Virus record (IMG/VR): IMGVR_UViG_3300005527_000040
Coordinates: 62,001-126,000 of that record
Strand: one strand, 5' to 3'
DNA length: 64,000 bases
DNA from: a virus
This document shows positions 4,727 to 63,431 of the stretch, in pieces. A program made the translations under genes and the position numbers. The notes beneath the pieces are model-generated. The model ran no database searches. It was not told where the DNA came from and saw only the letters and a program-made list of their open reading frames with translations. Numbering within the stretch: position 1 is the first letter of the stretch; the number at the start of each line of letters is the position of its first letter.

Positions 4727-4734
4727 CTGATAGG
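4727..4734 (-). promoter_or_regulatory. CCTATCAG element before the sigma-like gene
   Basis: On the minus strand the octamer ends 15 nt before the GTG of the sigma-like gene and is followed by CTTGC-GGAGG. It belongs to the set of about 17 near-identical elements placed just upstream of genes and may make the sigma gene self-activating. Confidence 0.6.
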
Positions 4735-5124
4735 CTAGAGCCCGGTGTTCATTGGACCAACGCCAGACAGCCCTTGGGGTTGGGTAGCCGGTGTGTTCTT
4801 GCGTAAGGCGTTCTTTGGAGAAATATCGGGGTTGATTACCCCATCTACAGGCTTTACCGACTTTACGCCCGGAGCCTGAAGCGTCGGCTTGCCCACGCGA
4901 GGAGCAGGCATGGTGCCGGGAACGCCTTTTTGAGACACAAACTTGCCCACGCTTTGAGAGGGGCTTGCTGGCATCTTAAGAGACATCGCGATCTTCGCAA
5001 AGAAGGGGGCTAGGATGTCCTCCGCAATCTTGTGCTTCCTTTTCTTGTGACGCGCGTTGACCCGCTTTCCGCTCTCGTAAAGGTACTTGACAGTCGTTGG
5101 CGTCATGATCCTTTCAACGCCCAT
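4735..5124 (-). CDS. Hypothetical basic protein
   Basis: 129 aa, basic N-terminal half (NARHKKRKHK around residues 23-32) and a Pro/Gly/Lys-rich, probably disordered C-terminus. The first ATG at 5122-5124 has AGGAG upstream; an internal Met at codon 7 (5106) also has an acceptable site. It overlaps the end of the 163-aa gene by 11 nt. Possibly a nucleic-acid-binding virion component, an inference from charge only. Confidence 0.6.
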   Translation of the reverse strand: MGVERIMTPTTVKYLYESGKRVNARHKKRKHKIAEDILAPFFAKIAMSLKMPASPSQSVGKFVSQKGVPGTMPAPRVGKPTLQAPGVKSVKPVDGVINPDISPKNALRKNTPATQPQGLSGVGPMNTGL

Positions 5125-5605
5125 TTGAGTGCTCCTGAACGTAGCGTTTTACTGTTTTTTGATCTTCGCCGCGATCAATCATTTCGCGAATTGCCTGGAT
5201 AGCAGATCCGCTAAGTGCTCCACGGGTAACGTTCTTCCCTAGGTCTCCGCCGGTAAGCTGCTTTGTGACTCCCTGCATCGCGCCAGCACGACCGCCTTGG
5301 ATTAAGCCCTTAACCCCCTCGCCTGCGGCAGCCACAAGAGGGTAGGCAACCGTCATTACCCCGGTGGTTTTTGCGTAACGACCAAGCGTTTTCTTCTTGG
5401 ATAGCCGCTTAGCTGCGTCCAGAGCTTCATCGTCGCTGATCTCCTCAGCAGCAAGCTTTAGCTCTTCAAAAAACGCAGACCAAGCCGGTCCTAAGCTGGC
5501 TTTCTTTGCGTGACTCATGTGTCGCCTTCCCGCGCCGTGCATACGGTCGATAAGCGTCTGGGCAGAAATGCTTGGGCTTCCGGACCGCGGTACAAACGTC
5601 GGCAT
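5114..5605 (-). CDS. Hypothetical protein with a central hydrophobic segment
   Basis: 163 aa. The N-terminal half is charged and contains AWSAFFEELKLAAEE; the middle has a Gly/Ala-rich hydrophobic stretch (VMTVAYPLVAAAGEGVKGL, residues ~83-101) that could insert in a membrane or form a helical hairpin. Similar hydrophobic patches occur in the tape-measure-like and 1,477-aa proteins of this phage. It lies between the hub-like gene and the 129-aa gene on the same strand. Function not recognised. Confidence 0.62.
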   Translation of the reverse strand: MPTFVPRSGSPSISAQTLIDRMHGAGRRHMSHAKKASLGPAWSAFFEELKLAAEEISDDEALDAAKRLSKKKTLGRYAKTTGVMTVAYPLVAAAGEGVKGLIQGGRAGAMQGVTKQLTGGDLGKNVTRGALSGSAIQAIREMIDRGEDQKTVKRYVQEHSNGR

Positions 5606-5627
5606 GGTTTCCGATTGTACGACAGAC

Positions 5628-8600
5628 TCAGCCTAGAACGCCACAGGTAGCAAACATGGTGTAAAGGTACCGAAGCACCGCCACCCGTTTTTCCTTTCTG
5701 GTGTCTAGGCGAGCTGAAATAGCCTGGTCCCGCCTAGCCCGTGTTGCCTCAGCCCCCGTAGTCTCATCTGGATCCCGAATAGTTAGCCCAAGGATCGTTT
5801 GCGGGCGAGTGCCGTCGCCCGGCCCGATGATTCTTCGCAGATCATCAAAGTCTCCAAACGCTCGCGAGTGGAACCCCTCCACTCCTTGAGTCACAGAACC
5901 ATCATCTGCAATCTGAAGGTTGGCCGTGCCAAACAGATCCACCATTGAGGCGATTGGGCGCCAAGTATACGCCTTGATAAACTGGTGAACGTCAAACTGG
6001 TTTAGCTTGACGAGGCTGTAGATTCGCACCAGCTCTTCAGTAGCTTCGCTGATGACACTCCGCTCTTGAGATCCCAAAATAGCGGATCTTACGACGCGGT
6101 CCTCTGTGGTTGGCGGAGTTCCGGCTGGCCCAAGGATCTCTCCCTCTGCCACAGCAGGTTCTGACGTACCTGGTTGGGGACCAGACGCTGCCGGGTCGTT
6201 AAACTCTCCACGCGCCAACGAGCTGATTAGCGTAGAGAACTCCTCGTTCATGGTTACACGAAGGGTTCTATCTACTCCATCGGCTGGCGTTGCCGCTCCT
6301 GGGTCTGCCCGAGAAGAGTCAGCGCTTCCGGCTACTACGCGAAGTGGGTCTGTGATAGCGCCTACGCTAAAGAAGTAAGCGTACAGGCCGCCTACCTGCT
6401 CAGACCGCCACTGATCCCCGTACCACGGCGGGAAGGTAAGAACCTCGGGGGGCAGGTTAACCGACTCACGCCGGTACGCCCCTAGGTTTTCTACAATCCG
6501 GTACGCGCGGAAAGTAACGAGGGTTTCTGTAGTTACAGATCCACCGCTTCCCGCTGACGCTGACGCATCCCACGGTGCACGGTTTACCGTAGAAGAATTG
6601 TAGAGCCCCCCGGCGCCTACGTAGGCTACGACCTCCGGGCCGTAGTTAGCCGCAGGCTGCTCTATTCCAACACGAACGCGCGTGCCACGGCGAGCCCGTC
6701 CTCGGAATGCAACGTCGTCAATGTAGAGCGGAACAGTGCGGTCAGAAGCTCTGCGGCTTGCTGGAGGCAGCGCCGTGCTGCCAGCCAAAACAGTTGTTCC
6801 GGTAGCACCGGTGGTCCCTGCGGCACCGGTGCCGGGGGTACTGCTAGGCCCACTAGTCTCCGTTCGGCGCGCGGTTCTTGCCCGAGCTACCCTCCGCAGG
6901 AACTCAGAGGTGATATCTCTAACCTCTACAATCGTTCCACCCCGAAACCCGACCCCCCCAACCTGCGGCGGGCGTAAGGCCCCAACTTCTGTGACTACCC
7001 GAACGTTGCGGTTTCTTCGGCCTGTTGTTCCTACGTTATCGCCAAGAAACTCCGTGCGCTCACTTGTTGTCCGGGCGTACGACATCTGAATCTGCGTCGT
7101 GCCCCCAGACTGAGTGTCCAGACTATGGGAGATAAGCTCTGGCGTTCCTAGGTAATGCGTATTGGGCCGAGCTTCCAATACGTCAGAAAGCACCTCGTAG
7201 ATTCGGGCGCTTTCCGCGGCCAGCCTTGCGTCTAGCTCAGCTTGCGGAACGCCTGACCGAATGATGCCCTCACCGTCTGCAATCGCTTCTGCAAGACGCG
7301 CGGCTACCGCTGAAGAGTAGGTACTCTCGCGAAGAGAGTCGGTGGGCAAGTACCGGTCAATAACCAGCATGGGAAAGCCCAGCACGCAGTACGGGTTGAA
7401 CTTTCCCGCAAGCTGTAGCTGTCGGCTTTGGAACCGCTGCTGGAAAAAGATGAAGTTGCAGGCTAGCTGGGCATAGCCAAGCCGAACGTTCTCGACATCG
7501 TAGTAACCCCCTCGCAGTGCGTGAAGGTTTAGGTCGCTCATGCGCTCAAACGCTGGAATGATCCCTGTGTAAAGTTCGTGATCCATGAGATCACGGCGAA
7601 TATGCAGGGGATAGTCGGCGTTTGTAAGCTCCGGGTCCCGCGCAGTAACCGGCGGACGCGTACCAGACCGCGCCCCCGACAACCTTGACGGAGCCATGTA
7701 AAAGCCGTCAAACAGAATATCGCTGCCAAAGAACGCAGAGTGCGTCCGAAGCAAGAGGCGAGAAGTCTCCTGCATGTAGTTACGGCTGTAGCTAAAGTTG
7801 CTGTACAGCTCGGGGAAGATGACGTTGCACCGGGGAGGTGCAACCATCCAAGCATTGGGGCGGTAGATCTGAGTAAGTAGCCTAGGCGGAGGATCAGGCT
7901 GCTGGGTAGTGCGCTGGATCCTGCGGCGAACGCTTGCGCGCAAGACGTCTTCCATAAGCCCAATGATCTCGTCAAGGATACGAGATACGTCGCTGGAGGT
8001 TGGGCTTGTGTTGACGGGGAGAACCCGGCGGTCTCCCGGGACGCGAAGCATTGAGCCAATGCCCCCGGTGCGCCCTCCCCACCGCTCTGACGCAGTCTCA
8101 AAGTTCGCAGCGACTGTCGGTATCCCCCAGAAGTCTGTCAGAGGACTTCCCGCCCGCCCTCGGCCGACCGCGCGAGCTAGGCGCGACGCACGAACACACA
8201 CCCTGTTCTGGTTTAGCAACTCTGCGCGGAGTCCACCTCGGAGGTTGCTCTCACGCAAAGCATCATCCGCGGTGTTACAGCGAGCTAGGCGCTCTTTTAG
8301 GTCTAGCGCCCTGCTCTTTACCCGATCCGCGATCCTAGCAAGCGGGGCGGTTTCCTCGTCTTGGTCAATGGTGTGCGTTTCGTAGCGAGGAATGTTGGGA
8401 TCGTAAAGCGGCGGAATATACCGGGGCGAGGTGATCGGAATAATCTCGTGAAAGATGTAGCGCTGAAGCGCTAGCAGGATTTGCCTGATGGATACAAGGC
8501 GGCCAAGCCCGGCTAGATTCCGACGAAATAGCGAGCCAAAGCCGTTGGCCCGCATGAGGCGCTGCTCATCCCGGTTTGTGTAAGGGCTTGCTCCCACCAT

Positions 8601-9344: not shown

Positions 9345-9348
9345 TAGA

Positions 9349-10578
9349 TCAGAGCCCCAGGTTGGCTACGTTTTGTGCTTGAGCAACAGCCTCTGGGCTT
9401 AAAGACCCACCAGCCTGCCGGTACCCAAACGCCCCAAAGGTTCGTCGTGCTGCAAAAGCTCCTGCGCCTAGCAGCATCGCCGAGACGCTACGACCAGTAG
9501 CATCTACGCCAAACTTCTTTAGTACCTGCTGAGCCTTTTCCTCAAGCGCCTCTGGAGAGTTCAACCTAAGCTGCTCCTGAACTCTGGCCGTTTCGGCGTC
9601 ATCAACCAGCAGCGGCGAAGGCTCTCGAACCACATACTCGTCAAAGTTCTCGTAATACGGCACGCCTACCGGAGGAGCCGAAAACTGCGCTTGGTTTGCA
9701 AGTGTGTTGGCCCTGGACCAAATGCCCCGCGGGTTAGTAAGCGGATCGGGCGGATTAAAGAACGTGTCCCGGTACTGCTGAACTGTCCGTTGAATAGTCA
9801 CGGAGGCATCCAACGCAAACCGCCGCATCTGCGCTAGGTTTGCGTTTAGGCCCGCGCTTCCCGGAGAGTTTCTACTTGCTGCCGCAGCAGTTGCTGCTGC
9901 TCCTTCTGGCGTATCCGGGGCAATCCCGCCTTCAGGAATAGGGGAAGCCCCAACTTCTTCTTCCGTAAACGTCATGTCCGCGTTACGCCAGTTAGTGATT
10001 CCAGGGCGGCTCAGGTCCGCGTACTGGCACACGTACATCTGGAACTGAAACTGGACGTGATACGGAGAGTCTGAAGCGTAGTTGACGCTTGATTGCAGAA
10101 TGTAGCCCTCTACGACGAGATCATCAAAGTACAAGTAAAGACGAGCGTTTTGCTCCACAAGACGTGTACCTCGAAGGTGCCTCTCGTAGTTCTCCAAAAA
10201 CTCGTTTTTCCAGTTGAAGTCTTTGGTGTTGAGCAGCACCCCGGCAAACGTCATGATCCGGGGACGCTCTCCAAAGAAGAAGATGTAGTCCTCGCCAAAG
10301 GTTTCTACGATCTGCTGCTTCTCTACCCGCTGCTCAGAAACTTGCTGAAGAATGAAGTTTGAGTACCTGGTGCTGTACCCGACCCCGTCTTCGCTGTCAG
10401 CGCTGGAGCTGTCAAAGATAGGGATCTCCTCGCCAGTAGCCTTGATGACCCGGATGACCGCGTACGTGTCTTCCTTGATCTCAATTCCGCGAAGAGGTCG
10501 GCGGACGTTCTCGTAGGTCTGTGTCTCTCGGCCTACGTCGGAGAACGCGTCGGTAGCCACCGTAATGTAGACAGCCAT
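9349..10578 (-). CDS. Baseplate/tail protein, partner of the hub-like protein
   Basis: 409 aa, coded 4 nt upstream of the hub-like gene. The N-terminal ~200 residues are compact and beta-rich with GEDYIFFFGERPRIMTFAGV and LNTKDFNWKNEFLENY, followed by YLYFDDLVVEGYI; I associate this block with baseplate or tail-tube-initiator proteins of myophages and long-tailed phages. The C-terminal half is Ala/Pro-rich and ends in a Gly/Ala helix region. ATG start; the divergent regulator gene begins 25 nt away, so promoters for both are squeezed into this gap. Confidence 0.6.
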   Translation of the reverse strand: MAVYITVATDAFSDVGRETQTYENVRRPLRGIEIKEDTYAVIRVIKATGEEIPIFDSSSADSEDGVGYSTRYSNFILQQVSEQRVEKQQIVETFGEDYIFFFGERPRIMTFAGVLLNTKDFNWKNEFLENYERHLRGTRLVEQNARLYLYFDDLVVEGYILQSSVNYASDSPYHVQFQFQMYVCQYADLSRPGITNWRNADMTFTEEEVGASPIPEGGIAPDTPEGAAATAAAASRNSPGSAGLNANLAQMRRFALDASVTIQRTVQQYRDTFFNPPDPLTNPRGIWSRANTLANQAQFSAPPVGVPYYENFDEYVVREPSPLLVDDAETARVQEQLRLNSPEALEEKAQQVLKKFGVDATGRSVSAMLLGAGAFAARRTFGAFGYRQAGGSLSPEAVAQAQNVANLGL

Positions 10579-10586: not shown

Positions 10587-10594
10587 CCTATCAG
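10587..10594 (+). promoter_or_regulatory. CCTATCAG element before the SANT-like regulator
   Basis: Plus-strand octamer ending 9 nt before the ATG at 10604, with GGCGGA between. This spacing chooses 10604 over the earlier ATG at 10577, which would lie upstream of the element. Confidence 0.55.
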
Positions 10595-10603
10595 CAGGCG
10601 GAC

Positions 10604-15243: not shown

Positions 15244-15251
15244 CCTATTAG
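15244..15251 (+). promoter_or_regulatory. CCTATTAG variant element before the 95-aa gene
   Basis: Plus-strand variant of the recurrent octamer, ending 16 nt before the ATG at 15268 and followed by GAAGGAG. Same geometry as the CCTATCAG sites. Confidence 0.5.
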
Positions 15252-15267
15252 ACATTGAAGGAGTTTT

Positions 15268-16096: not shown

Positions 16097-16409
16097 CTTC
16101 GTCCTTCCTGTTGGTTTTCTTGCGGATCTTCCCGCCCTCTAGCGCTTCTTCAGCCTCAAGAGACAGGTTCTCCCAGTTTTCTAGCTCGTCTCGGGCTTCG
16201 CTAATCTTGACTTCGATTTCGTTGATCGTGCTCTCTACGTGCACCTCTGGAACCGTTGCGTAGTCAGACCGCGTAAACCGCATCTCAGCGTCGCCTGAAT
16301 CAGACGACAAGTAGTTTGTCCGAAGATACAGGATAAGACCTTCTAGCACGGAGATCCTTGAGCGGATCTCCGAGATCTTATCGATTACGGTTCCAGCCTT
16401 TACGCCCAT
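16029..16409 (-). CDS. Hypothetical coiled-coil protein
   Basis: 126 aa, largely heptad-like helix (IDKISEIRSRISVLEGLILY, then EVKISEARDELENWENL), with a basic, low-complexity tail after residue ~95 that overlaps the next gene by 68 nt. The start lies 2 nt from the upstream 231-aa gene. Function unknown; a structural or scaffold role would fit. Confidence 0.62.
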   Translation of the reverse strand: MGVKAGTVIDKISEIRSRISVLEGLILYLRTNYLSSDSGDAEMRFTRSDYATVPEVHVESTINEIEVKISEARDELENWENLSLEAEEALEGGKIRKKTNRKDEDAAIGRNQDQPAPVGVRRTQAR

Positions 16410-16411
16410 GG

Positions 16412-17107
16412 CTACGCCAGAAGGAATGCCCGGAGACGCCCTTCAAGCGTTGCACCGGAAGAGGTGTCTTTGAGGATGTTTGCGAGGGGGTAGGCGATCC
16501 GCATACGGCGGTTCCTGACCTTGTCGTATACCTCACCGCCCCGATCACGCTCCATCTCTTTTTCGTTAGCGCGCCGAATATCACCCTCAACGTGCTCTAG
16601 GACAATGTCCGCGTTGCAGTCTAGGCGGGTAAACATCTTGTAGACGAGCGTCACCCAGTGCTGAAGCGGGAGCCTTGCCATGACCTGCCCAACGAGGTCG
16701 GTTGGGTTGTGTACCGACTTGCACTTCGGGCACACGGCAACCCGCTTAGAGACAAACTGAATGTGAAGCGGCTCACCACACGTAACGGTTGACCCGTCCT
16801 TGCCGTCTTCCTTGCTGGGGCAAAGGTAAACAACCTCGTCGCCCCCGCCGTGCAAGAACCCTCCGTTAGTCCACACGCTGACCATTCCGAAGAATGGTCG
16901 GTGAAGAGAGCGATCTTGCGAGAAGCAAACTTCCAGCTTGAACCGGGCCTGCGCCTCGTCCAGATCTGTCAAAAACATCTTTGACAGCTTCTCTTCAACC
17001 TCCTCGTCAAGAACGGCATCGCGGGCAAGCTCCGCCATGTCGTAAAGGCCCCCGGACAGCGCACTGCTGCCGTCGGCGCTTACCATGCCCTGAGCGCCAC
17101 GAGTCAC
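16412..17107 (-). CDS. Hypothetical protein with a CxxC pair
   Basis: 231 aa. The middle holds Cys residues at VYLCPSKED, VTCGEPL and VCPKCKS (residues ~94-140), suggesting a zinc-stabilised insertion. The C-terminal half is helical with aromatic and charged residues (HWVTLVYKMFTRLDCNADIV). It starts 4 nt inside the preceding gene's end. The order (this, 143-aa, 181-aa) suggests a small operon of virion-associated proteins, but I do not recognise the family. Confidence 0.65.
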   Translation of the reverse strand: MTRGAQGMVSADGSSALSGGLYDMAELARDAVLDEEVEEKLSKMFLTDLDEAQARFKLEVCFSQDRSLHRPFFGMVSVWTNGGFLHGGGDEVVYLCPSKEDGKDGSTVTCGEPLHIQFVSKRVAVCPKCKSVHNPTDLVGQVMARLPLQHWVTLVYKMFTRLDCNADIVLEHVEGDIRRANEKEMERDRGGEVYDKVRNRRMRIAYPLANILKDTSSGATLEGRLRAFLLA

Positions 17108-17535
17108 GTGCCCACCTTAAAGTGCTGTGCAACCAAGCCGGAGGCCGCGCCGATTGAGTGTGCGCCCTTGGTGCTTCCGGGCGCTGTATCTACCCTGCCA
17201 ACGAGCGGTTGGCTGGTGACCTCAACGCCTTGACTAAGCACCCGGATTACCGTTTGGCCAAGTACTTCTGCTGCGTCCTTAGGCGCGCCCTTCATAACGA
17301 CTCGCCAGAGGTACCGGACGCTCTTGGATGTCGTGTCTAGGAAGTAAACGCGGCTAATGTCTACAGACCACTTCTTGTCTGCAAGCGAGTCCTGCGTAAT
17401 CAAATATTCCCGAACGACCTCGGCCCAAACCGCCGGGTCCTTTACTCGGAGCATGAGGGTTGCTGATCCCGCAGAGTCTTGCTTCTGGGTGACGATCTCA
17501 GTGCTGCAACGGCCAAGCGCTTGATCTAAACGCAT
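17104..17535 (-). CDS. Hypothetical protein
   Basis: 143 aa. Alpha/beta composition with a hydrophobic strand (RYLWRVVMKG) and a Gly/Ala/Ser C-terminus. It overlaps the 231-aa gene by 4 nt (ATGA-type) and follows the 181-aa gene by 1 nt. No motif seen; a tail-completion or connector role is possible from context only. Confidence 0.62.
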   Translation of the reverse strand: MRLDQALGRCSTEIVTQKQDSAGSATLMLRVKDPAVWAEVVREYLITQDSLADKKWSVDISRVYFLDTTSKSVRYLWRVVMKGAPKDAAEVLGQTVIRVLSQGVEVTSQPLVGRVDTAPGSTKGAHSIGAASGLVAQHFKVGT

Positions 17536-17536
17536 C

Positions 17537-18082
17537 TCAAGCTCCCATGTCGATGATGATTGCGTGTGTCACGTCGGCTAAGAGGTTGGTTGGCCCGCCC
17601 ATAACGACGAGTTTGTCCTCAAACGCCGGGGTATCGGAGTAAATAGCGGGCATCCCAAAAACGCTTTGGGGCCTTGGATCCTCAAGCGCCAAGAACGCGC
17701 TAAGATCCTCGGCTTTTTGCGCTGCCAGAAACGTGGGCTTTACGCGGTACGCCGAGAGTGTTCGAGTTGCTAGCTCTAACGATAGGTACGGGTGCCGTTC
17801 AGGGTCAAAAGGCAGCGATGACAGGTTCCCAGACGCCTCTACCCGCTCCAGCACAAAGGCTGCGTCTACGTGTTGAGCAACCTCAACGCTTGGAATGACC
17901 TGTTCGCCGTCGGCTACGAGCCTTTGGACGTTAAACTCAGTCGGAGTGATGCGGATCTCAAGGGTGTCCGGCAGCTCCACCACGCGCTTAAACAGCGCCA
18001 CGATCTCCTCGACCGTGCGAGGAAGGGGCTGGCTGTGCGTACGCAGCCTACGGCCTTCATCCTGGGTTGCTGCTGATTCCAT
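17537..18082 (-). CDS. Hypothetical protein
   Basis: 181 aa, mixed alpha/beta, acidic, with hydrophobic strands near the C-terminus (DKLVVMGGPTNLLADV, then AIIIDMGA). The start overlaps the end of the ribbon-helix-helix gene by 26 nt. No known motif. Confidence 0.62.
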   Translation of the reverse strand: MESAATQDEGRRLRTHSQPLPRTVEEIVALFKRVVELPDTLEIRITPTEFNVQRLVADGEQVIPSVEVAQHVDAAFVLERVEASGNLSSLPFDPERHPYLSLELATRTLSAYRVKPTFLAAQKAEDLSAFLALEDPRPQSVFGMPAIYSDTPAFEDKLVVMGGPTNLLADVTHAIIIDMGA

Positions 18083-18263: not shown

Positions 18264-18310
18264 CGCTTGAGAATACTTAGCGAATACCAATCGTCAAGAG
18301 AATACTTACT
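18264..18310 (-). promoter_or_regulatory. Sigma70-like promoter with AGTAAGTATT operator copy
   Basis: Read leftward: AGTAAGTATT (18301-18310), TTGACG (18292-18297), a 16-nt spacer, TATTCT (18270-18275), six bases, then ATG. With a start site about 7 nt after the minus-10 box, the mRNA would begin at or next to the ATG, so the ribbon-helix-helix gene appears leaderless. Confidence 0.7.
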
Positions 18311-28698: not shown

Positions 28699-28737
28699 GA
28701 GAATACGATAAGAATACTTACTCAGTTGAGGGTGTCA
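28699..28737 (-). promoter_or_regulatory. Sigma70-like promoter with AGTAAGTATT operator copy
   Basis: Leftward TTGACA (28732-28737), 16-nt spacer containing the start of AGTAAGTATT (28712-28721), and TATTCT (28710-28715). A start about 7 nt on leaves only ~5 nt before the ATG at 28698. Same architecture as the promoter at 18264-18310. Confidence 0.72.
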
Positions 28738-28791: not shown

Positions 28792-28799
28792 CCTATCAG
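28792..28799 (+). promoter_or_regulatory. CCTATCAG element before the methyltransferase
   Basis: Plus-strand octamer followed by TAAATGA-GGAGG and the ATG at 28816 (16 nt after the octamer). Same spacing as the other SD-containing units. Confidence 0.62.
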
Positions 28800-28815
28800 T
28801 AAATGAGGAGGAAAC

Positions 28816-29379
28816 ATGAACGAACTGTACAAAATCTGGCGATCATACACGATGGACAAAACCTGGTACGTACCGGGGTCGTGGGAGGCTCGCGCTCACG
28901 CAGTGCGTGTGTACTCGTGGGCCGTGCCCACAAACACCGCTATTCACGTTCTCACCCGGCAGCCAATCGTAGAGATTGGTGCAGGGACGGGATACTGGGC
29001 AAGACTTGTCCATGAGGCAGGCGGCGACGTCGTCGCCTACGACCCTGAGCCGTACCAGAACCGGTACGTCAGCGGAAAACACTTCCCCGTCCGCAAGGGC
29101 GGGACCAGGTCGGTAGCGCAACACGCCGATCGGGCACTCTTCATTTGCTGGCCGCCTTACAATGACGGAGTGGCCGCGCTTGCTCTCCGGACATACCGGA
29201 GGGCAGGTGGAAAGAAGCTGTTCTACGTAGGTGAAGATAGGTACGGGTGCACCGCCAACAACCAGTTCTTCGACGAGTTGGAGAAGCACTGGTATTGCGG
29301 CGAATCGCTTTCCATCCCGAGATGGGATGGGATATACGATGGGTTCAACGTATACGACTTGGCTTCTACGGGCCGGTAG
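28816..29379 (+). CDS. Putative SAM-dependent DNA/RNA methyltransferase
   Basis: 187 aa. Motif I is clear: IVEIGAGTGYWARLV (residues 51-65, SAM-binding loop), followed by VVAYDPEPY where an acidic residue should bind the ribose. WPPY at residues ~113-116 stands where amino-methyltransferases have the (D/N/S)PP(Y/F) catalytic loop. It is rightward, has its own octamer element, and is followed by tRNA-Ile; the stop codon TAG lies inside the 5' strand of the tRNA acceptor stem. Could modify DNA, RNA or a nucleotide; the substrate is not shown by sequence. Confidence 0.78.
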   Translation: MNELYKIWRSYTMDKTWYVPGSWEARAHAVRVYSWAVPTNTAIHVLTRQPIVEIGAGTGYWARLVHEAGGDVVAYDPEPYQNRYVSGKHFPVRKGGTRSVAQHADRALFICWPPYNDGVAALALRTYRRAGGKKLFYVGEDRYGCTANNQFFDELEKHWYCGESLSIPRWDGIYDGFNVYDLASTGR

Positions 29380-29442
29380 CTCAACGGTGAGAGCCCCCGC
29401 CTTATAAGCGGGAGGTCACGGGTTCAACTCCCGTCCGGCCTA
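29370..29442 (+). tRNA. tRNA-Ile (anticodon UAU)
   Basis: A complete cloverleaf is visible: acceptor GGGCCGG/CCGGCCT (G-U first pair), D stem GCTC/GAGC, anticodon stem CCCGC/GCGGG with loop CTTATAA, T arm ACGGG-TTCAACT-CCCGT, discriminator A. The anticodon TAT reads AUA, a codon that GC-rich hosts use rarely. No CCA is encoded. The first 10 nt overlap the end of the methyltransferase gene. Confidence 0.93.
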
Positions 29443-29443
29443 C

Positions 29444-30613: not shown

Positions 30614-30637
30614 TGGACGTTTGTCCTCCTTCATTCA

Positions 30638-30645
30638 CTGATAGG
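30638..30645 (-). promoter_or_regulatory. CCTATCAG element of the 29.5-30.6 kb unit
   Basis: Leftward octamer followed by TGAATGAA-GGAGG; 24 nt lie between it and the ATG at 30613. It probably starts the three-gene unit ended by the terminator at 29515-29546. Confidence 0.6.
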
Positions 30646-31995: not shown

Positions 31996-33227
31996 GCTCC
32001 GACCTTGTACGAGTGACCTACGACTTCCGTAGGAAGGTCCGCGCCGCGTACGTGGGGCTCGATCCACTTACGCGTGCGAAGGGTGTAACCCGGCCCGTGG
32101 GCTTGGTTGCGCCAGTGTCCTCGCACAAGAGTGCGGTACGTCAGCTTGTAGCCGCCGGTGCCTTCGGTGCGAATGATCTCCCGCATCTCGGCGTCTACCG
32201 AGACGTTGGTGCCCACCGCAAACACACGATCGTCCCGAAGCTGTTGAATCTTCTCTTGAACCCGCTTACGCAGGTTCTTGAACTTTTTGTTTCCGTGCAG
32301 CCGGTCAATCTCATCAGCATGCACATGCTTTACGGCCGCCTTCTCCGAGCCCATGTAGATGCACAGGTTCAAGACGAACCTGAGCAGCAGGTTTCGGATT
32401 TCCAAGCCGTCAAGGGTGCGCTCTCCTAGACGGCCGCTGTTTAGCGTCCGTTCGTATTCTGCGATATTGACGGTCCTGTCGCGCAGGCCCACAAGGCCGC
32501 GGGTAGACCGCTCAATAGCAGATTCGACGTCCTCCTCTTTGTTATCGATCAGATACGTCTTGAACAGCCACGTATCGTCGAACGGATTTGAGGAGTTTTC
32601 GTTAGGCTCTCCGTAGGCTTCGATGAGGAGCCTCTCTCCAAGCTCGGGAGTCTTTGCGGTCGTATCGCCTTGCCGCGCGGCGATCTCAAGCGTGCGAGGG
32701 GTAATGCACCCCTGAGCGACTACGAGAGACCGGACACAGTGCCACCCCGTCTTCGCGTCCTCTAAGTAGAAGAGGTTGTCGGGCAGCTCAACGTAAAATG
32801 CCTTCATCGGGAGCTTTAGGTCCCCGACGACTGCACCCTTCAGCTCCGTGGCGAGGAGCTTGTAGGTAAGCCCCTCGCTCGGGGCGAACCAGTTAGACGT
32901 CGCGCTGATGGTGCGCAACTTTGCAGTTACCCATGCGACAAGGCCCGAATGCATATCGGAGCCGCGCCCGTGAAGGGCGAGCATCGCGCGGAACTGCGGA
33001 TCCTCCGCCAGTTCGGAGAACCAGTCTAGGTCCCGTCCCAAAGACCAGTTCTGCGACGCCTTCTCACGAAAGTCTGCGGACAAACGGAAAACGGGCCGCT
33101 TTGCTTTGAACGCGCGCATGATCCTCTGCGCGTCAGCAATGAGGGTGCCCCTTCGGAACTTCTCCTTGGACTTGGCGTACTCCTCAAGAGCTGCCACGAC
33201 CTCTTTCACTTCTTCTTCGTCATGCAT
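31992..33227 (-). CDS. AcrVA2-like family protein
   Basis: 411 aa from the ATG at 33225-33227 (GGAGG seven bases upstream; CCTATCAG before that). Three blocks follow the layout of AcrVA2 of Moraxella: LKLPMKAFYVELPDNLFYLE near residue 140, an LLRFVLNLCIYMGSE helix in the middle, and C-terminal VRGHWRNQAHGPG followed by RTRKWIEP, matching the 'RGHW...G.G....+W.P' end of that protein. AcrVA2 blocks Cas12a production by targeting its mRNA. Most relatives in phages have no tested anti-CRISPR activity, so only family membership is proposed here. It heads a coupled operon of small genes. Confidence 0.62.
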   Translation of the reverse strand: MHDEEEVKEVVAALEEYAKSKEKFRRGTLIADAQRIMRAFKAKRPVFRLSADFREKASQNWSLGRDLDWFSELAEDPQFRAMLALHGRGSDMHSGLVAWVTAKLRTISATSNWFAPSEGLTYKLLATELKGAVVGDLKLPMKAFYVELPDNLFYLEDAKTGWHCVRSLVVAQGCITPRTLEIAARQGDTTAKTPELGERLLIEAYGEPNENSSNPFDDTWLFKTYLIDNKEEDVESAIERSTRGLVGLRDRTVNIAEYERTLNSGRLGERTLDGLEIRNLLLRFVLNLCIYMGSEKAAVKHVHADEIDRLHGNKKFKNLRKRVQEKIQQLRDDRVFAVGTNVSVDAEMREIIRTEGTGGYKLTYRTLVRGHWRNQAHGPGYTLRTRKWIEPHVRGADLPTEVVGHSYKVGA

Positions 33228-33244
33228 GTGTGCGCCTCCAAAGG

Positions 33245-33252
33245 CTGATAGG
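33245..33252 (-). promoter_or_regulatory. CCTATCAG element before the AcrVA2-like gene
   Basis: Leftward octamer followed by CCTTT-GGAGG and the ATG 17 nt on. It lies directly after a terminator, as expected for the start of a new unit, and rules out the longer frame beginning at 33263. Confidence 0.65.
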
Positions 33253-35600: not shown

Positions 35601-35606
35601 CAATAA

Positions 35607-35614
35607 CTGATAGG
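35607..35614 (-). promoter_or_regulatory. CCTATCAG element before the ligase gene
   Basis: Leftward; the TATCAG part ends exactly 6 nt before the ATG, the same distance as in the units at 39217 and 63438. Confidence 0.62.
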
Positions 35615-36826: not shown

Positions 36827-36852
36827 CTGCAAGGGACAAGGATCCCTTGCAG
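36827..36852 (-). other. 5' leader stem-loop
   Basis: CTGCAAGGG pairs perfectly with CCCTTGCAG (9 bp, 8-nt loop). It begins 3 nt after CCTATAAG and ends where the ribosome-binding site starts, leaving the SD exposed. Probably protects the 5' end or tunes initiation. Confidence 0.7.
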
Positions 36853-36855
36853 AAG

Positions 36856-36863
36856 CTTATAGG
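36856..36863 (-). promoter_or_regulatory. CCTATAAG element before the 127-aa gene
   Basis: Leftward octamer of the recurrent set, A form (TATAAG). Like the other TATAAG copies with longer leaders, it is followed by a stem-loop. Confidence 0.62.
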
Positions 36864-38708: not shown

Positions 38709-38721
38709 ATACCTCCAAATC

Positions 38722-38729
38722 CTGATAGG
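38722..38729 (-). promoter_or_regulatory. CCTATCAG element of the RNase HII unit
   Basis: Leftward octamer followed by GATTT-GGAGG and the ATG 13 nt on. It lies between a strong terminator and the first gene of the unit. Confidence 0.68.
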
Positions 38730-39217: not shown

Positions 39218-39223
39218 CTGTGT

Positions 39224-39231
39224 CTGATAGG
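39224..39231 (-). promoter_or_regulatory. CCTATCAG element before the 148-aa SLOG-like gene
   Basis: Leftward; TATCAG ends exactly 6 nt before the ATG at 39217, with no ribosome-binding site between. Confidence 0.62.
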
Positions 39232-40913: not shown

Positions 40914-40927
40914 TTATCTCCGCAAAA

Positions 40928-40988
40928 GAACAAGCGTCGTGTGCCTACTGGTTTGGTAGTAGGAGGACTTGGCACACGACGCTCGTTC
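40928..40988 (-). other. Long leader hairpin (18-bp stem)
   Basis: GAACGAGCGTCGTGTGCC (40971-40988 read leftward) pairs with GGCACACGACGCTTGTTC (40928-40945) with one G-U pair and a 25-nt apical region that can form a small inner stem (TACT/AGTA). The single imperfect pair is G-U in the leftward RNA but A-C on the other strand, which supports a role in the leftward transcript. The stem starts 5 nt after TATCAG. Confidence 0.8.
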
Positions 40989-40993: not shown

Positions 40994-41001
40994 CTGATAG
41001 G
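40994..41001 (-). promoter_or_regulatory. CCTATCAG element before the leader hairpin
   Basis: Leftward octamer 5 nt before the 18-bp hairpin, in the gap after the thymidylate synthase gene. The distance to the ATG is about 80 nt, the longest of the set. Confidence 0.6.
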
Positions 41002-43935: not shown

Positions 43936-43941
43936 CAGAAG

Positions 43942-43949
43942 CTGATAGG
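43942..43949 (-). promoter_or_regulatory. CCTATCAG element before the 191-aa gene
   Basis: Leftward octamer in a short gap after the 146-aa gene, followed by a stem-loop and AAGGAGA. Confidence 0.6.
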
Positions 43950-52519: not shown

Positions 52520-52544
52520 CGATCCCCCTAGTGATCTAGCAAAG

Positions 52545-52615
52545 CTCGGGGCCGTGGATTCGAACCACGATTCACGGATTCAAAGTCCGCTGTCCTGCCC
52601 TTAGACGAGCCCCGA
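52545..52615 (-). tRNA. tRNA-Gln (anticodon UUG)
   Basis: A complete cloverleaf on the minus strand: acceptor TCGGGGC/GCCCCGA, D stem GTC/GAC, anticodon stem GCGGA/TCCGT with loop CTTTGAA (anticodon TTG, reading CAA), T arm CGTGG-TTCGAAT-CCACG, discriminator G. No CCA encoded. It lies 4 nt after the kinase gene and is probably cut from that transcript. Confidence 0.93.
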
Positions 52616-53413: not shown

Positions 53414-53428
53414 AAATACCTCCAAATC

Positions 53429-53436
53429 CTTATACG
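53429..53436 (-). promoter_or_regulatory. CGTATAAG variant element (leftward)
   Basis: Followed by GATTT-GGAGG, the same leader as the unit at 38722, and the ATG at 53413, 15 nt away. It faces away from the CCTATCAG element 13 nt to its right, forming a divergent pair. Confidence 0.56.
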
Positions 53437-53449: not shown

Positions 53450-53457
53450 CCTATCAG
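53450..53457 (+). promoter_or_regulatory. CCTATCAG element (rightward)
   Basis: Followed by TGTGT-GGAGG and the ATG at 53472, 14 nt on. Right half of the divergent pair. Confidence 0.66.
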
Positions 53458-53471
53458 TGTGTGGAGGCAAT

Positions 53472-57370: not shown

Positions 57371-57378
57371 CCTATAAG
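57371..57378 (+). promoter_or_regulatory. CCTATAAG element, cassette 1
   Basis: Rightward octamer, A form, 8 nt before a leader stem-loop. Followed on the same strand by TAGTTGAAGC, similar to the second cassette (CGTTTGAAGC). Confidence 0.62.
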
Positions 57379-57386
57379 TAGTTGAA

Positions 57387-57855: not shown

Positions 57856-57863
57856 CCTATAAG
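57856..57863 (+). promoter_or_regulatory. CCTATAAG element, cassette 2
   Basis: Rightward octamer, followed by CGTTTGAAGC and a small stem-loop before the ribosome-binding site of the 116-aa gene. Confidence 0.62.
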
Positions 57864-57872
57864 CGTTTGAAG

Positions 57873-57893: not shown

Positions 57894-57907
57894 ATTCAGG
57901 AGATAAC

Positions 57908-58258: not shown

Positions 58259-58261
58259 GTC

Positions 58262-58307
58262 AGTTACCCCACTCCCCTACCAAGGGGTCGAGTGGGGTAA
58301 CTTTTTG
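58262..58307 (+). terminator. Terminator, cassette 2
   Basis: AGTTACCCCACTC pairs perfectly with GAGTGGGGTAACT, followed by five Ts and GCC. Near-ideal intrinsic terminator. Confidence 0.92.
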
Positions 58308-58316
58308 CCAAAAACA

Positions 58317-58324
58317 CCTATAAG
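58317..58324 (+). promoter_or_regulatory. CCTATAAG element, cassette 3
   Basis: Rightward octamer 9 nt after the previous terminator's T run, before a perfect leader stem-loop. Confidence 0.64.
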
Positions 58325-58333
58325 AAGATAGAT

Positions 58334-58351
58334 CGGAAACGGTTGTTTCCG
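58334..58351 (+). other. 5' leader stem-loop, cassette 3
   Basis: CGGAAAC pairs with GTTTCCG (7 bp, GGTT loop), ending 1 nt before AGGAGG. Confidence 0.72.
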
Positions 58352-58363
58352 CAGGAGGACCAC

Positions 58364-58810
58364 ATGATCAAGAACGGTGCTGAAGACTTGAACGAGCAGA
58401 TCAAGAACCTGAGCGAGCAGATCGACAAGCAGAAGCGTACCGAAAAGGCGACCGAGAAGTTCTTCGAAAGGCCGGAGGAGCTTCCGGTCCTCATGCCGGT
58501 GAGGCCGCAGTCGATGACCGTGAACGCGGTCATCGAGTCGATTCTCGCCAAGGGCCCGTTGCCCGAGAGTTCGTTCCGGCAGGTGGTGCTCCTGCTGGCA
58601 GGAGCGAACAAGGCGGCGGATTTGGAGATCTCGATGGCGGTCATGGACCGCATCGAGCGAACGCTTCCGGCGTTCGCCATGCTCATGCAGAAGCGCCTCT
58701 CCCCCGAGGAGGCGGAGATCCATGAACTGGAACTCCGGCTGCGCAAAGCGCAGCTACAGGTGCAGCTTGACGATCTGGAAATCGTCAAGCACGCCAAGAT
58801 CAAGGCGTGA
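58364..58810 (+). CDS. Small helical protein, cassette 3
   Basis: 148 aa from the ATG at 58364 (AGGAGG five bases before; an in-frame Met seven codons earlier would start in the hairpin). Coiled coil at both ends (LNEQIKNLSEQIDKQKRTEK and ELRLRKAQLQVQLDDLEIV) with a helical centre. Layout close to the cassette 1 protein. Function unknown. Confidence 0.74.
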   Translation: MIKNGAEDLNEQIKNLSEQIDKQKRTEKATEKFFERPEELPVLMPVRPQSMTVNAVIESILAKGPLPESSFRQVVLLLAGANKAADLEISMAVMDRIERTLPAFAMLMQKRLSPEEAEIHELELRLRKAQLQVQLDDLEIVKHAKIKA

Positions 58811-58816
58811 CACTAG

Positions 58817-58857
58817 GTTGATCCGCCGCCCGCAAGGGCCTGGCGGATCAACTTTTT
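58817..58857 (+). terminator. Terminator, cassette 3
   Basis: GTTGATCCGCC pairs with GGCGGATCAAC and is followed by five Ts and GCC, the same TTTTTGCC tail as the cassette 2 terminator. Confidence 0.92.
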
Positions 58858-58873
58858 GCCAGTAAAAAGTAAA

Positions 58874-58915
58874 GGAGGGCGCCCAGATCAGCAGCACGTC
58901 CGGGCGCCCCCCTCT
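58874..58915 (-). terminator. Terminator of the polyvalent protein gene
   Basis: GGGCGCCC twice (58877-58884 and 58902-58909), a self-complementary pair, followed on the minus strand by TTTACTTTTTACT. It closes the leftward 1,477-aa gene against the opposing cassettes. Confidence 0.78.
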
Positions 58916-58922
58916 ACCTAGC

Positions 58923-61900
58923 TTAGAATGCCCGACCAGCGCCTTGGTACGCGGGTGCAGCAAGGGGGCGGGAGGTCTGAGACTCTTCCTGCGCCATCTG
59001 CGTCTGGTTTAGCATATGGCCTGCTCCTACCGCCAGCCCGCCAAGGCCCAACGCGGCAGCTCCACCGGCAATCGGGATGGCATTACGGCGCAGGAACCCA
59101 GGCTGTTTGGGTGCTTCCGGAGCGGCTGGCTGGCCCGCGGGTGCTACCGGTGTAGCCGCTCCGGTAGCTGCTACGGGCGTAGCGGCGGGAGATGCAGCGG
59201 CTGGGGCAGGAGGAGGAGGCGGCGCCACTCCCGCTGACTGCTGCGGTGGTGGCGGCGGGGGCGGAGGTGGGGGCGGCGCAGCACGCTGCGGAGGTGGTGG
59301 GGGTGGAGGCACTGGGCGCGCTGCCGCTGCGGGCGGTGGCGGTGGAGCAACAACGCGCCCCGTCTGGTTCTCAAGAGAGAAGCCAGGGGGCAGGGCAGGC
59401 CCGGGGGTTACGGGCAGCTGAGCCCGCGCGGGCGCGGAACTCGCGCCGGAGGCACGAACTAGCTCAGACAACTCTGGAACGCGACCAGCCTCTTGCGTAA
59501 CCGCTTTTGACTCTAGGTTAGCCAGCAGCGACTCAACCTGTGGGGACATTTGTCCCGGATCAGGCTTGGGTAGTGACGACGGCGCTGGTCGAGGTGCTAC
59601 TTGGGTTGCCTCGTTCCCAATAGCCTCTCGACGCATGCGATCTTGGGAGGCTCGTAGAGCTTCTGCCCTTCGAGTTTCCTTTGCCGCCGCGTCAGCTTGA
59701 CCCTTTGCTAGAACCTCTGCTTGCGAAGGTTCAGCGGGGCGCGCAGCAGGCGTGGCGGGGGGCTTAGCTGCGGGCTTAGCGGCAGGCGCAGCAGCGGGCG
59801 TAGCAGCGGGCGTAGTGGCTGGAGCAGTCGCAGGCGAAGTCTTTGGCGCAGGCGGTGCTTTTTCCCAGCCTAGCGCTTGGCGAGCCTTGCGGACCTCAGC
59901 GGCTTCTGCCGCTCCGCGCCCAGAGACTTCCTTCTTAACTTCGTCGACAAGCTTCTTGTCTTCCGCCCTGGCTGCGGCTCGCGCTGCCTCAGCCTTATCC
60001 AGCTTGGCTTTGTACTCCGGGCTGCCCGTTACGGGGTTTTGCTCACGCTGTTTTGACCTTTGGGCGGCCTCAGACTCCCGCTGTGTCTTACGCGCTGCCG
60101 CGGCCTGTTCTTCCCGCTCAATGGCAGCACGCTCACGCGCCTGACGCTCAGCGGCCCTGGTTCCCGGCTTTACGTCTGAGCGCCCAGCAAACTGTTGGTC
60201 TAGCTGGTCCTTACGCTGCTGAATGCGCGCCTGATCCTTTGCTGTCGCAGCCTCAAGCTTGTTGCGGTCTGCTGCGTCGGCCATTTCCCGCTTAAGTGTA
60301 TCCCGCGCGGTGTCCTGAGCCTTTAGGCGAGCTACCTCTTTAGAGGCTGCCTCCGGACCCCGGACCTTTGCTCCCGCAAGCCCTTCTCCGCTCCTAAGCG
60401 CCTGTACCTCGGCGCCTAGTTGCTTAGCTTTTCCTGAAACAAAGTTTCGACCCTGACGGCCAAAGTGAATAGCATCGTCGGCAAACTCCCGCCCTACGTC
60501 TTTCAGGGCTCCCAGCGCCTGCCGGGCAATACCTTTGGCGATCTTTTCCTGCTCCTCATTGGTCATGTACTCCCAGTCGGGGTACATGATCTGAGCAACC
60601 TTGACCGCCTGCCGCATGGCCAAGGCAGCGTTTGCCTTCTTTTCCTTTGACTTGTACTTCATGTAGTCGTGGACGGCGTCAATCGCCTCCGACGCACGGT
60701 CAATCTTGCTCTCAACCCAAGGCTCCGCGTTGTCCCGAACGGATACAGCACCAGAGAGCCGCTTAGACTGATCCGCAAGCCGCTTGAGGTTGCTGACCAT
60801 CATGTAGCCGGGCGGGTCATTGTGCTCGGAAAGCACGGACTTTCTGGAGGCTGTCTTTGGGGCTTCCGCCGGAACATAGTCTTCCGGCTTTTTACCGCCG
60901 GGAAGAAGCCGGTCGATCCCGCGAGATACGGGCTTGATAACGCCCGGAGCAACAAGGGCTAGTCCGCCGATCTCCTGAAGATGGTAATCCTTCATCTTCT
61001 TGCCAGCGCCGTGGATTGCGGCTCCCATGGCCTTAATCCTTGGATCGCTGGCGTGCTCCATCTTTTCGCCAGCAAACTGAGCGATAGACGGGGCCGCTAA
61101 AGCAGCAATACCAACGTCGTCTAGCCGATCAGCAATAAACTCGGCGCGCTCGCTGTCCTTAGCCGCCTTGATGTTATCGCCTTGGATCGAGGCTGCAAAA
61201 TCGGTAACCGGCGGGATGTCGTCCCCGACGCCATTCCGCTCACCGTTACGCTTTGCAGGCTGAACCAGCGAGGCAATCTTCAAAGAACCAAAATCGATGT
61301 CTTGACCGCTGCTGATGCGCGCAAGGTTCAGCTCAATGAAGGCGTCGAGTTGTGTTCCACCGACTTTGGCGGCCTGCCCCGAGCCGTATGCCGAGTTCTG
61401 CTTAGTCATGTACATTCCGGCTCCAACGCCGGCAAGACCAACGGTTGGGGTTACCCACCACGGCAGCTTAAACCCACCGCCCTCAGCTGCCGCAGCGGCT
61501 GGTGCGCCTGCGGGCGCGGCCGCTGCTGGAGCTGCGCCTGCGGCAGCGGCTGGGGGAGGCGGAGGTACCGCTGCGCCCGGAACCGGGGGAGGAGCAGCAG
61601 CCGGCACTCGGCTGCCTCCTTCGTACTTGACGTGGCCTCCGGACATAAGCCGGTCGCCTGCCCGGGTGGCTTTTACGTCTTGAGTGATGTTAGACAGCTG
61701 CTGTGGCGTCAGGCTTGTGCCCTGTAGGCCGGCCTTGAACGACGCTGCGCTGCGGGCAGATCCTGCGGCTAGTGCGTCACCAGCAGCATGGGCTACGTTC
61801 TTAGTGCCCTGAACTGCCCGGCCAGCAAGGTTAGCCGTGCCTTGAACAGCCTGCTGACCTGCGCGCACTACCCGTCCGAACATGTTTGCTGCAACGTTGG

Positions 61901-63356
61901 CAGCCTTTTCCTGCTCTTCAGGCGACATCCGGTCCCAGTCTGGGAACACCGCACGCGCCAGCTTTACGGCGTCACCGGCGTAGCGTGGAGTAACCGGCGT
62001 GTACGCAAGGCTGGCCTTCTTGTCCCGGTTTGCCAGGTACAAGCCCGTTCCGCCTGCTGCGAGTAAGCCTCCTCCTACTACAAGCGGCGCATAACCGCCG
62101 GATCCGGTTGCCGGGGCAGCAGCTGGAGTTGCGGCCGGGGCAGCCGCTGGTACCGCCGCTGCACCTTCGTTTTGAACGGCTTGCCGAACGACGTTTTCCC
62201 GCTGCGTCCTGCTGGCCTCTGCCGCTGCGTTAAGATTCTGCTCAAACGCCTTTTCAGCTGCACGCGCCTGATTCTTAGCCTCTGCATCGATAACTGCGGC
62301 AGCTTGGGGAAAGCGACCGCTAGGGTCTGTTGCTGAGGGTCGAAGCGGGGGTGTGTAGCCCGTAGTAGGCGCAGGTTGAACCGGTGTCGCGGCAGGAGAC
62401 ACGCCCCGGGTTGGCGCGGGGATTGGTGCATGCCCTTGTCCGGCTAGATCTCGCCCACGAGCACGGTAGCCCTGCTGAATCGCGTCGTCTAGGTCCTTGC
62501 CACCACGAAGCCCCCCAACCACGTGCTCTATCGGGGCGCCGCGGCGGGTGCTCTGCGACAGCTCTCCTACAGCTTTGCGAGCGCCGGATACCCCACCCAC
62601 TACGCGGCTGTTTGCGGCTTCGCGTGCCTGCTGGGCAATTGCGTTTGCAATGTCTGGCGTAACTTCGTGGCCAGCGGTGGCTAGGCGCTTGGTTAGCCCA
62701 GCGGCAACCCGCTTCTCAATATCGGCCGCAGAAATGGCCAGCTTGGTTACTTCTGCTTTCTTTGATCGCATTGTAGGCTTGCCCTTCTCGGCCGGAGCAC
62801 GCTCAGGGAGGTTCTTCATGTTGGGAGTCTCGTCTGCCCATTCCTTCGCCTTCTCTTTTGAGAAGCCAGGAATATGGCCGCCGAATGCGGCGCGCTGCTG
62901 ACGCTTGGACGTGAAGGGCATCTTATTCTCCGAAATCTTTTGGCCGTGGTTCTTCTTATCGAGAACCTTACCCTTAAACTCTTCAACGCCCATCTCCCTC
63001 ATCGAGCCGAAGAAGCGGGGGTCATTATAGTGAGCTAGGTAAGCCGCCTTAGCCGCTTTGGCGTCCTTAAATCCGAGCATCACCTTCTGCTCGTCAAACC
63101 GCCTGAAGTCTGGCTTCTTCATCTGATCGACGATGAACACGGAGCTGGAGTCGGTATCCGGGCCGACGTAGACATCGACGTGGTCGCCGTCAGTGCCCTC
63201 TGTGCGGCGGAAGTAGCCGTAGTCGTACTTCATCACCGTGGTGCCAGATTCTCCGCTGTGGGGATCCTTCCAATGGCGCGACGACCCTCGCGGGTTTTCG
63301 ATAGAAATATCGAACCCGTAGAGCTTTACCCTCTTTTTTATCGGATGTGCGGCCAT
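58923..63356 (-). CDS. Large polyvalent protein with pyrophosphatase-like N-terminus
   Basis: 1,477 aa. Residues 1-135 contain DGDHVDVYVGP (56-66): Asp56, Asp58 and Asp61 keep the DGDxxD metal-ligand spacing of family I inorganic pyrophosphatase, followed by VFIVDQMKKPDFRRFDEQKV, the 'InPase' domain of phage polyvalent proteins. Then a MPFTSKRQQRAAFGGHIPGF motif (146-165), long Ala/Pro/Gln-rich linkers, three Gly-rich hydrophobic segments (near residues 435, 640 and 1440), a repeated PDW...EEQEK unit (near 475 and 930), and a Pro-run region near 1350. Large proteins of this design are packed in the virion or injected. A virion or ejection role is likely; enzymatic activity is untested. Confidence 0.76.
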   Translation of the reverse strand: MAAHPIKKRVKLYGFDISIENPRGSSRHWKDPHSGESGTTVMKYDYGYFRRTEGTDGDHVDVYVGPDTDSSSVFIVDQMKKPDFRRFDEQKVMLGFKDAKAAKAAYLAHYNDPRFFGSMREMGVEEFKGKVLDKKNHGQKISENKMPFTSKRQQRAAFGGHIPGFSKEKAKEWADETPNMKNLPERAPAEKGKPTMRSKKAEVTKLAISAADIEKRVAAGLTKRLATAGHEVTPDIANAIAQQAREAANSRVVGGVSGARKAVGELSQSTRRGAPIEHVVGGLRGGKDLDDAIQQGYRARGRDLAGQGHAPIPAPTRGVSPAATPVQPAPTTGYTPPLRPSATDPSGRFPQAAAVIDAEAKNQARAAEKAFEQNLNAAAEASRTQRENVVRQAVQNEGAAAVPAAAPAATPAAAPATGSGGYAPLVVGGGLLAAGGTGLYLANRDKKASLAYTPVTPRYAGDAVKLARAVFPDWDRMSPEEQEKAANVAANMFGRVVRAGQQAVQGTANLAGRAVQGTKNVAHAAGDALAAGSARSAASFKAGLQGTSLTPQQLSNITQDVKATRAGDRLMSGGHVKYEGGSRVPAAAPPPVPGAAVPPPPPAAAAGAAPAAAAPAGAPAAAAAEGGGFKLPWWVTPTVGLAGVGAGMYMTKQNSAYGSGQAAKVGGTQLDAFIELNLARISSGQDIDFGSLKIASLVQPAKRNGERNGVGDDIPPVTDFAASIQGDNIKAAKDSERAEFIADRLDDVGIAALAAPSIAQFAGEKMEHASDPRIKAMGAAIHGAGKKMKDYHLQEIGGLALVAPGVIKPVSRGIDRLLPGGKKPEDYVPAEAPKTASRKSVLSEHNDPPGYMMVSNLKRLADQSKRLSGAVSVRDNAEPWVESKIDRASEAIDAVHDYMKYKSKEKKANAALAMRQAVKVAQIMYPDWEYMTNEEQEKIAKGIARQALGALKDVGREFADDAIHFGRQGRNFVSGKAKQLGAEVQALRSGEGLAGAKVRGPEAASKEVARLKAQDTARDTLKREMADAADRNKLEAATAKDQARIQQRKDQLDQQFAGRSDVKPGTRAAERQARERAAIEREEQAAAARKTQRESEAAQRSKQREQNPVTGSPEYKAKLDKAEAARAAARAEDKKLVDEVKKEVSGRGAAEAAEVRKARQALGWEKAPPAPKTSPATAPATTPAATPAAAPAAKPAAKPPATPAARPAEPSQAEVLAKGQADAAAKETRRAEALRASQDRMRREAIGNEATQVAPRPAPSSLPKPDPGQMSPQVESLLANLESKAVTQEAGRVPELSELVRASGASSAPARAQLPVTPGPALPPGFSLENQTGRVVAPPPPPAAAARPVPPPPPPPQRAAPPPPPPPPPPPQQSAGVAPPPPPAPAAASPAATPVAATGAATPVAPAGQPAAPEAPKQPGFLRRNAIPIAGGAAALGLGGLAVGAGHMLNQTQMAQEESQTSRPLAAPAYQGAGRAF

Positions 63357-63423
63357 GCCAATGCGGTGCCCAGCATAACACAGGCTTACGCCAAGCTAAA
63401 AGCCCAAGAAACCCGCTATTCCC

Positions 63424-63431
63424 CCTATAAG
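63424..63431 (+). promoter_or_regulatory. CCTATAAG element at the right edge
   Basis: TATAAG ends exactly 6 nt before the ATG of the edge gene, the leaderless spacing also seen at 35600 and 39217. Confidence 0.63.

Follow-up and report, generated by a model that had tools for sequence, protein, structure and literature searches.

A recurrent octamer, CCTATHAG, in the genome of an uncultured large phage is best explained as a -10 core that spans positions -13 to -6 in a class of phage-specific promoters, which would be read by the phage's own RNA polymerase and sigma factor; a probability of about 0.8 is assigned to this reading. The proposed reader consists of a divergent sigma70-family factor that would recognise the octamer while sitting on a polymerase in which beta and beta' are fused into one chain. 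Transcription would start at a purine, usually G, that follows a T, with four free bases between octamer and T in this phage and five in sister clades, and the leaders would be minimal: their first element, be it Shine-Dalgarno sequence, hairpin or start codon, would begin no more than a few bases from +1. The motif with its statistics, spacing, phase and conservation, as well as the homology of the polymerase and the sigma factor, was read directly from the sequences; which proteins read the motif, at which base transcription starts and when are predictions built on them. The stretch analysed (the window, 64,000 nucleotides) covers bases 62001-126000 of a viral record of 160,725 bp; positions are those of the window unless the record is named. 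The promoter sites and the sigma gene are as follows.

3893-4711, minus strand: divergent sigma70-family factor of 272 aa, predicted promoter-specificity subunit; gene behind the octamer at 4727
4727-4734, minus strand: octamer CCTATCAG, predicted +1 at 4721, GGAGG at +1; sigma gene
10587-10594, plus strand: octamer CCTATCAG, predicted +1 at 10600; gene with a weak D5-like regulator match
15244-15251, plus strand: octamer CCTATTAG, predicted +1 at 15257
28792-28799, plus strand: octamer CCTATCAG, predicted +1 at 28805; gene 28816-29379, then tRNA-Ile at 29370
30638-30645, minus strand: octamer CCTATCAG, predicted +1 at 30632
33245-33252, minus strand: octamer CCTATCAG, predicted +1 at 33239; preceded by a terminator-like hairpin
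35607-35614, minus strand: octamer CCTATCAG, predicted +1 at 35601, 1 base 5' of the DNA ligase ATG (near-leaderless)
36856-36863, minus strand: octamer CCTATAAG, predicted +1 at 36850; 9-bp hairpin from +1, then GGAGG
38722-38729, minus strand: octamer CCTATCAG, predicted +1 at 38716; preceded by a terminator-like hairpin
39224-39231, minus strand: octamer CCTATCAG, predicted +1 at 39218, 1 base 5' of ATG (near-leaderless)
40994-41001, minus strand: octamer CCTATCAG, predicted +1 at 40988; long hairpin from +1
43942-43949, minus strand: octamer CCTATCAG, predicted +1 at 43936; hairpin from +1
53429-53436, minus strand: weak variant CGTATAAG, predicted +1 at 53423; divergent to the site at 53450
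53450-53457, plus strand: octamer CCTATCAG, predicted +1 at 53463, GGAGG at +1
57371-57378, plus strand: octamer CCTATAAG, predicted +1 at 57384; 9-bp hairpin from +3, then GGAGG
57856-57863, plus strand: octamer CCTATAAG, predicted +1 at 57869; hairpin leader
58317-58324, plus strand: octamer CCTATAAG, predicted +1 (A) at 58330; hairpin from +5, then GGAGG
63424-63431, plus strand: octamer CCTATAAG, predicted +1 at 63437, 1 base 5' of the ATG of a 220-codon frame

Seventeen copies of CCTATHAG were found in the window against 2.7 expected by chance, a number reached in none of 100 shuffles, and one further, variant copy at 53429 also faces a gene. An earlier note on this DNA had listed these 18 sites with their strands and had claimed that each is placed in the reading direction of its gene; all coordinates and strands were reproduced, and the strict orientation was borne out at every site in the window. 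The same note had set beforehand that the octamer would have to be rarer inside genes than in front of them. Across the whole record (27 copies, with gene calls made for this analysis), a single copy at record position 32500 lies deep within a called gene, and there is none within the called genes of the window; thus, the octamer is not as frequent inside genes as before them. Nearly all of the remaining copies, the flanks of which were read by hand, have a start codon, a Shine-Dalgarno sequence, or a hairpin and a Shine-Dalgarno sequence ahead of them. Motif discovery agreed with this picture: in an unbiased enrichment over five related genomes, the top-ranked 7-mers upstream of genes were the octamer pieces CCTATCA, CTATCAG, CTATAAG and CCTATAA, which far outranked ribosome-binding and terminator words. 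The maxima of the permutation control were left out as a null, since they probably contain shifted versions of the motif.

The octamer itself was confirmed as the recurrent unit, but the motif proved to be longer than had been proposed, with a T and then G or A four bases further on. Based on an alignment of 75 sites, drawn from four genomes within one clade, the full element comprises an A-rich stretch at -31 to -29, an AT-rich stretch at -19 to -16, CCTAT(C/A)AG at -13 to -6, four free bases, and T(-1)G(+1). Position -1 is a pyrimidine (T in 54 and C in 13 of the 75 sites) and position +1 is always a purine (71 G, 4 A, no C or T). The earlier impression that no minus-35 box is obvious holds only in part, given the A-rich stretch, which is weak, and the AT-rich one. 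Scanning the record with the full model yielded 29 sites above 13 bits, with about one expected and a gap in the scores below. Additional sites emerged in this way, among them GCTATCAG at record 7333, which points away from the divergent polymerase gene, and a further copy of the weak variant at record 128037, the predicted start of which lies 16 bases before the tRNA cluster (tRNA-Thr, record 128066). The site at record 30257 scored poorly and is doubtful. As for the terminators said to stand often just upstream of the octamer, the association is real but modest in size, with a terminator ahead of 19 among 89 octamer sites and of 39 among the 421 remaining gene starts (p 0.002).

The arrangement downstream of the octamer offers indirect evidence that the predicted +1 is the transcription start. 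The Shine-Dalgarno sequence begins at +1 to +5 in most octamer units, and in three window units (35607, 39224 and 63424) the ATG lies at +2. Longer leaders are usually occupied by a hairpin, and the strongest stems start only a few bases away from +1: among the 31 stems that qualified in a span of 105 bases, 15 start between -6 and +5. In several octamer leaders, strong 5' hairpins fill the space between +1 and the ribosome-binding site, for example at 40926-40988 and 36827-36850, and could perhaps protect the mRNA end.

The protein encoded at 3893-4711, which had been put forward as the factor reading the octamer, is predicted to belong to the sigma70 family on the basis of similarity over regions 2 to 4, which supports that proposal. 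A profile of five sigma orthologs (the window protein and its orthologs from four related genomes) matched RpoD with an E-value of 2.7e-6 among PDB sequences; the 47 best matches were all sigma factors, and profile positions 94-267 are colinear with RpoD 366-543, from region 2 to region 4. Single-sequence scans of this protein gave nothing in Pfam at the usual cut-off and no match in PHROGs, and scanning the whole record for Sigma70_r2 also gave no match; only profile and structure point to this identity. The AlphaFold2 model has a pLDDT of 72.6 and a low pTM of 0.38, and in Foldseek against solved structures the best 50 matches were all sigma or RNA polymerase entries (E 3e-6), but with a TM-score of only about 0.3 for a model of this low pTM. 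In a viral structure library, the best matches of the model were phage sigma factors. A sigma70-family protein of this kind is predicted to bind core polymerase and to direct initiation at a -10 element.

A candidate core for this factor is encoded outside the window, on the minus strand at record 1089-7292, as a 2067-aa protein with a beta part (13-1016) and a beta' part (1113-2033). It matched bacterial beta' with an E-value of 4e-85 in phmmer, beta aligned too, and Pfam recovered Rpb2_6 (E 2.5e-57) and Rpb1_2 (E 3e-20). The three catalytic aspartates (NGDIDGD) and both beta-motif lysines (KISTRHSAKG) are retained. An alpha subunit was looked for and none was found, and a search of the called proteins for a second catalytic beta' motif gave only chance-like matches. 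With beta and beta' homology, catalytic motifs and no alpha, the protein would fit the multisubunit-type phage polymerases of the phiKZ/AR9 kind, except that the core is one chain and is not split over four or more polypeptides.

Polymerase, sigma factor and promoter were found to travel together. The fused polymerase is encoded at sixteen viral loci, one nearly identical and the others 54-65% identical, and each of the seven further large contigs that carry it also has a sigma ortholog. In the relatives examined, the sigma gene or a small gene directly upstream of it has the octamer in front. All large relatives examined that carry the polymerase also have the motif, with an N4 or N5 spacer according to clade: the closer clade has octamer-N4-TG and the remaining ones have octamer-N5-TR, without overlap among the genomes compared. 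The N5-TR form counted 39 sites in the N5 group and none in three N4 genomes, and reversed-pattern controls for the spacer counts gave 0 to 2. In the polymerase tree, the N4 forms make up one clade with a support of 95/100 (one row, L027, labelled N5x, was counted as N4 after its sites had been read), and the N5 forms lie outside this clade and in the outgroup. More distantly, Salmonella phage Arash and Vibrio phage D69 have a polymerase that is about 29-31% identical and split in two genes, and each carries an annotated sigma factor, to which the window sigma aligned in hhalign with an E-value of 4.6e-5. Their sites have the same architecture as the window octamer but different first letters, namely GGTATAAG-N5-TR in Arash (27 sites, control 1) and GKTATAAG-N5-TR, mostly GTTATAAG, in D69 (20 sites, control 3). 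There were no near DNA matches to named phages, and literature searches on the motif or phage Arash returned nothing useful.

The distribution of the octamer over gene classes suggests a cascade. There is no octamer in front of the polymerase gene; instead, TTGACCC-N17/18-TAGACT stands about five or six bases 5' of its GTG start in every relative read. In this record, the host-type leaderless promoter occupies record 7299-7328, beside the divergent octamer promoter, and it was also seen in L016-L030 upstream of base 10001. A similar host-type promoter precedes the gene at record 16348-17859. On the other hand, the octamer at record 17900 heads a replication operon (helicase, DNA polymerase and UvsX-like recombinase), and the class further heads the sigma gene, DNA ligase (35607), tRNAs and many small genes. 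Host polymerase would thus transcribe the polymerase gene from its conserved host-type leaderless promoter, after which the phage holoenzyme would transcribe the octamer class, comprising sigma, the replication operon, ligase, the tRNA cluster and small genes. Since the sigma gene itself lies behind an octamer, the first sigma would have to be brought in with the virion or be made by read-through or from a host-type promoter. The octamer is missing from structural genes (terminase, tail sheath), including a minus-strand structural block at 131-160 kb of the record, so another promoter or reader must serve this block. Scans for host promoters, k-mers and upstream regions of orthologs revealed no second promoter class for structural genes beyond scattered GTATTCT repeats.

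The earlier note had read the octamer as a minus-10-type phage promoter at the start codon, used by a phage-modified or phage-encoded factor. The promoter reading is supported by placement, orientation, the -1/+1 signature, the leaders, the tRNA variant and the clade-specific spacer. Of the two kinds of reader, a phage holoenzyme is the likelier and a modified host polymerase the less likely, given the fused beta-beta' polymerase encoded outside the window. Host-polymerase redirection by phage sigma factors is nonetheless common (PMC7598289, PMC7824862), and a host core redirected by the phage sigma might read the octamer while the phage beta-beta' protein serves another class, such as the structural genes, the octamer-free operons of which need one. 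This arrangement seems unlikely, considering that every large contig, as well as Arash and D69, encodes the sigma factor together with the phage polymerase, and that promoter spacing changes with the polymerase clade, though the sigma factor diverges in parallel with the polymerase clades that differ in spacing.

Readings without a promoter function were rejected on the tRNA variant, the hairpins at +1, the orientation and the phase to the start signature. The position of the octamer 6-25 nt 5' of start codons, often right before GGAGG, could suit a translation enhancer or processing signal acting in RNA, but the variant before the tRNA cluster at record 128037 argues against a translation signal, and the many hairpins beginning at the predicted +1, the divergent octamer pairs, the upstream terminators, the A-rich and AT-rich elements, spaced as in a promoter, and the pyrimidine/purine signature make an RNA-level role very improbable. 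That the octamer is a regulator's operator or a packaging or replication site, with ordinary host promoters nearby, can hardly be credited: some copies are divergent, and the one at 10587 overlaps a host-type -10-like word, TGATAGGCT, of a leftward gene, but the strict gene orientation and fixed phase to the start-site signature do not fit, and no recurrent host-type -35/-10 was found upstream of octamer genes. Reading by the phage polymerase and sigma is preferred. In a broader sense, it seems probable that this lineage of large tailed phages possesses self-contained, bacterial-style initiation, with a one-chain, alpha-less beta-beta' polymerase, a highly diverged true sigma70 factor and dedicated promoters whose spacing shifted by one base in step with the polymerase lineage, which would make it a minimal holoenzyme between bacterial and phiKZ-type enzymes.

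Late promoters of phage T4 carry TATAAATA and are read by gp55 with the host core, the sliding clamp and gp33. The octamer class resembles them in being a -10-type promoter with a divergent phage sigma and a core resembling TATAA, but here the phage encodes its own core whereas T4 uses that of the host. Identity with T4 late promoters was rejected, as the element at -10 is not TATAAATA but CCTAT(C/A)AG-N4-TG.

The nearest analogues are the non-virion enzymes of AR9 and phiKZ (PMC5312081, PMC9209446, PMC7598289). AR9 late promoters, AACA-N6-TA/G, are recognised by the non-virion RNA polymerase together with gp226 (PMC5312081, PMC9209446), and both systems combine a bacterial-type phage polymerase, a sigma-like specificity subunit, and a short -10-like element with T(-1) and a purine at +1 at a fixed distance. 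They differ in that the AR9 core is split over several polypeptides, whereas beta and beta' form one chain here; that gp226 is without detectable sigma sequence similarity, whereas the present factor can be recognised as sigma70 by profile; and that AR9 reads template-strand uracils, with a different motif here. The early promoters of phiKZ-like phages, such as AAATATATATTAT-N6-G (PMC5312081, PMC7598289), were likewise found by motif search and share a conserved element near -10, no clear -35 and a start a few bases downstream, but they are AT-rich and read by the virion polymerase, in contrast to CCTAT(C/A)AG and a polymerase gene with a host-type promoter. For the Bacillus phage 0305phi8-36, another large phage with its own polymerase (orf99), a recurrent phage-specific class of 14 candidate 21-bp promoters has been described (PMC2147016); unlike here, orf99 belongs to the RNAi-polymerase family (Pfam05183) and no sigma was recognised there.

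In the reviews consulted, phages that have a multisubunit polymerase of their own form a group apart from those with a recognisable sigma (PMC7598289, PMC7824862), whereas the present lineage has both. According to one review (PMC7598289), bioinformatics could not predict the non-early promoters of polymerase-encoding jumbo phages; in the present case the promoter, to the exact base, can be named along with a polymerase and a sigma, for uncultured phages as well as for Arash and D69, which makes the proposed holoenzyme directly testable. A one-chain core with a recognisable sigma may offer a simple model for the working and evolution of sigma-dependent initiation.

Several minor observations accompany these results. 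The GTATTCT repeats, some tandem and some after TTGAC, lie just 5' of ATG in all five genomes and are possibly a second promoter or operator class; they were located as follows.

18270-18305 and 28700-28717 of the window, minus strand: GTATTCT repeats
G006 at 119229, G003 at 16387, G005 at 187627 and G001 at 99771: GTATTCT repeats elsewhere

A 1477-aa protein encoded at window 58923-63356 has an N-terminal inorganic-pyrophosphatase-like domain (PF18823, E 6.5e-39) of a kind common to phage head-protein families, and in relatives a leaderless host-type -10 (TATACT-like) lies upstream of its gene. The window carries tRNA-Ile(TAT) at 29370-29443 and tRNA-Gln at 52544-52615, and eight further tRNA genes lie at record 128066-130165, the first of which is headed by the octamer variant. 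Based on the leaderless starts and TAGACT, an actinobacterium may be guessed as the host; a search of genome contigs with the polymerase for a hint of the host returned only one locus, which is 26% identical.
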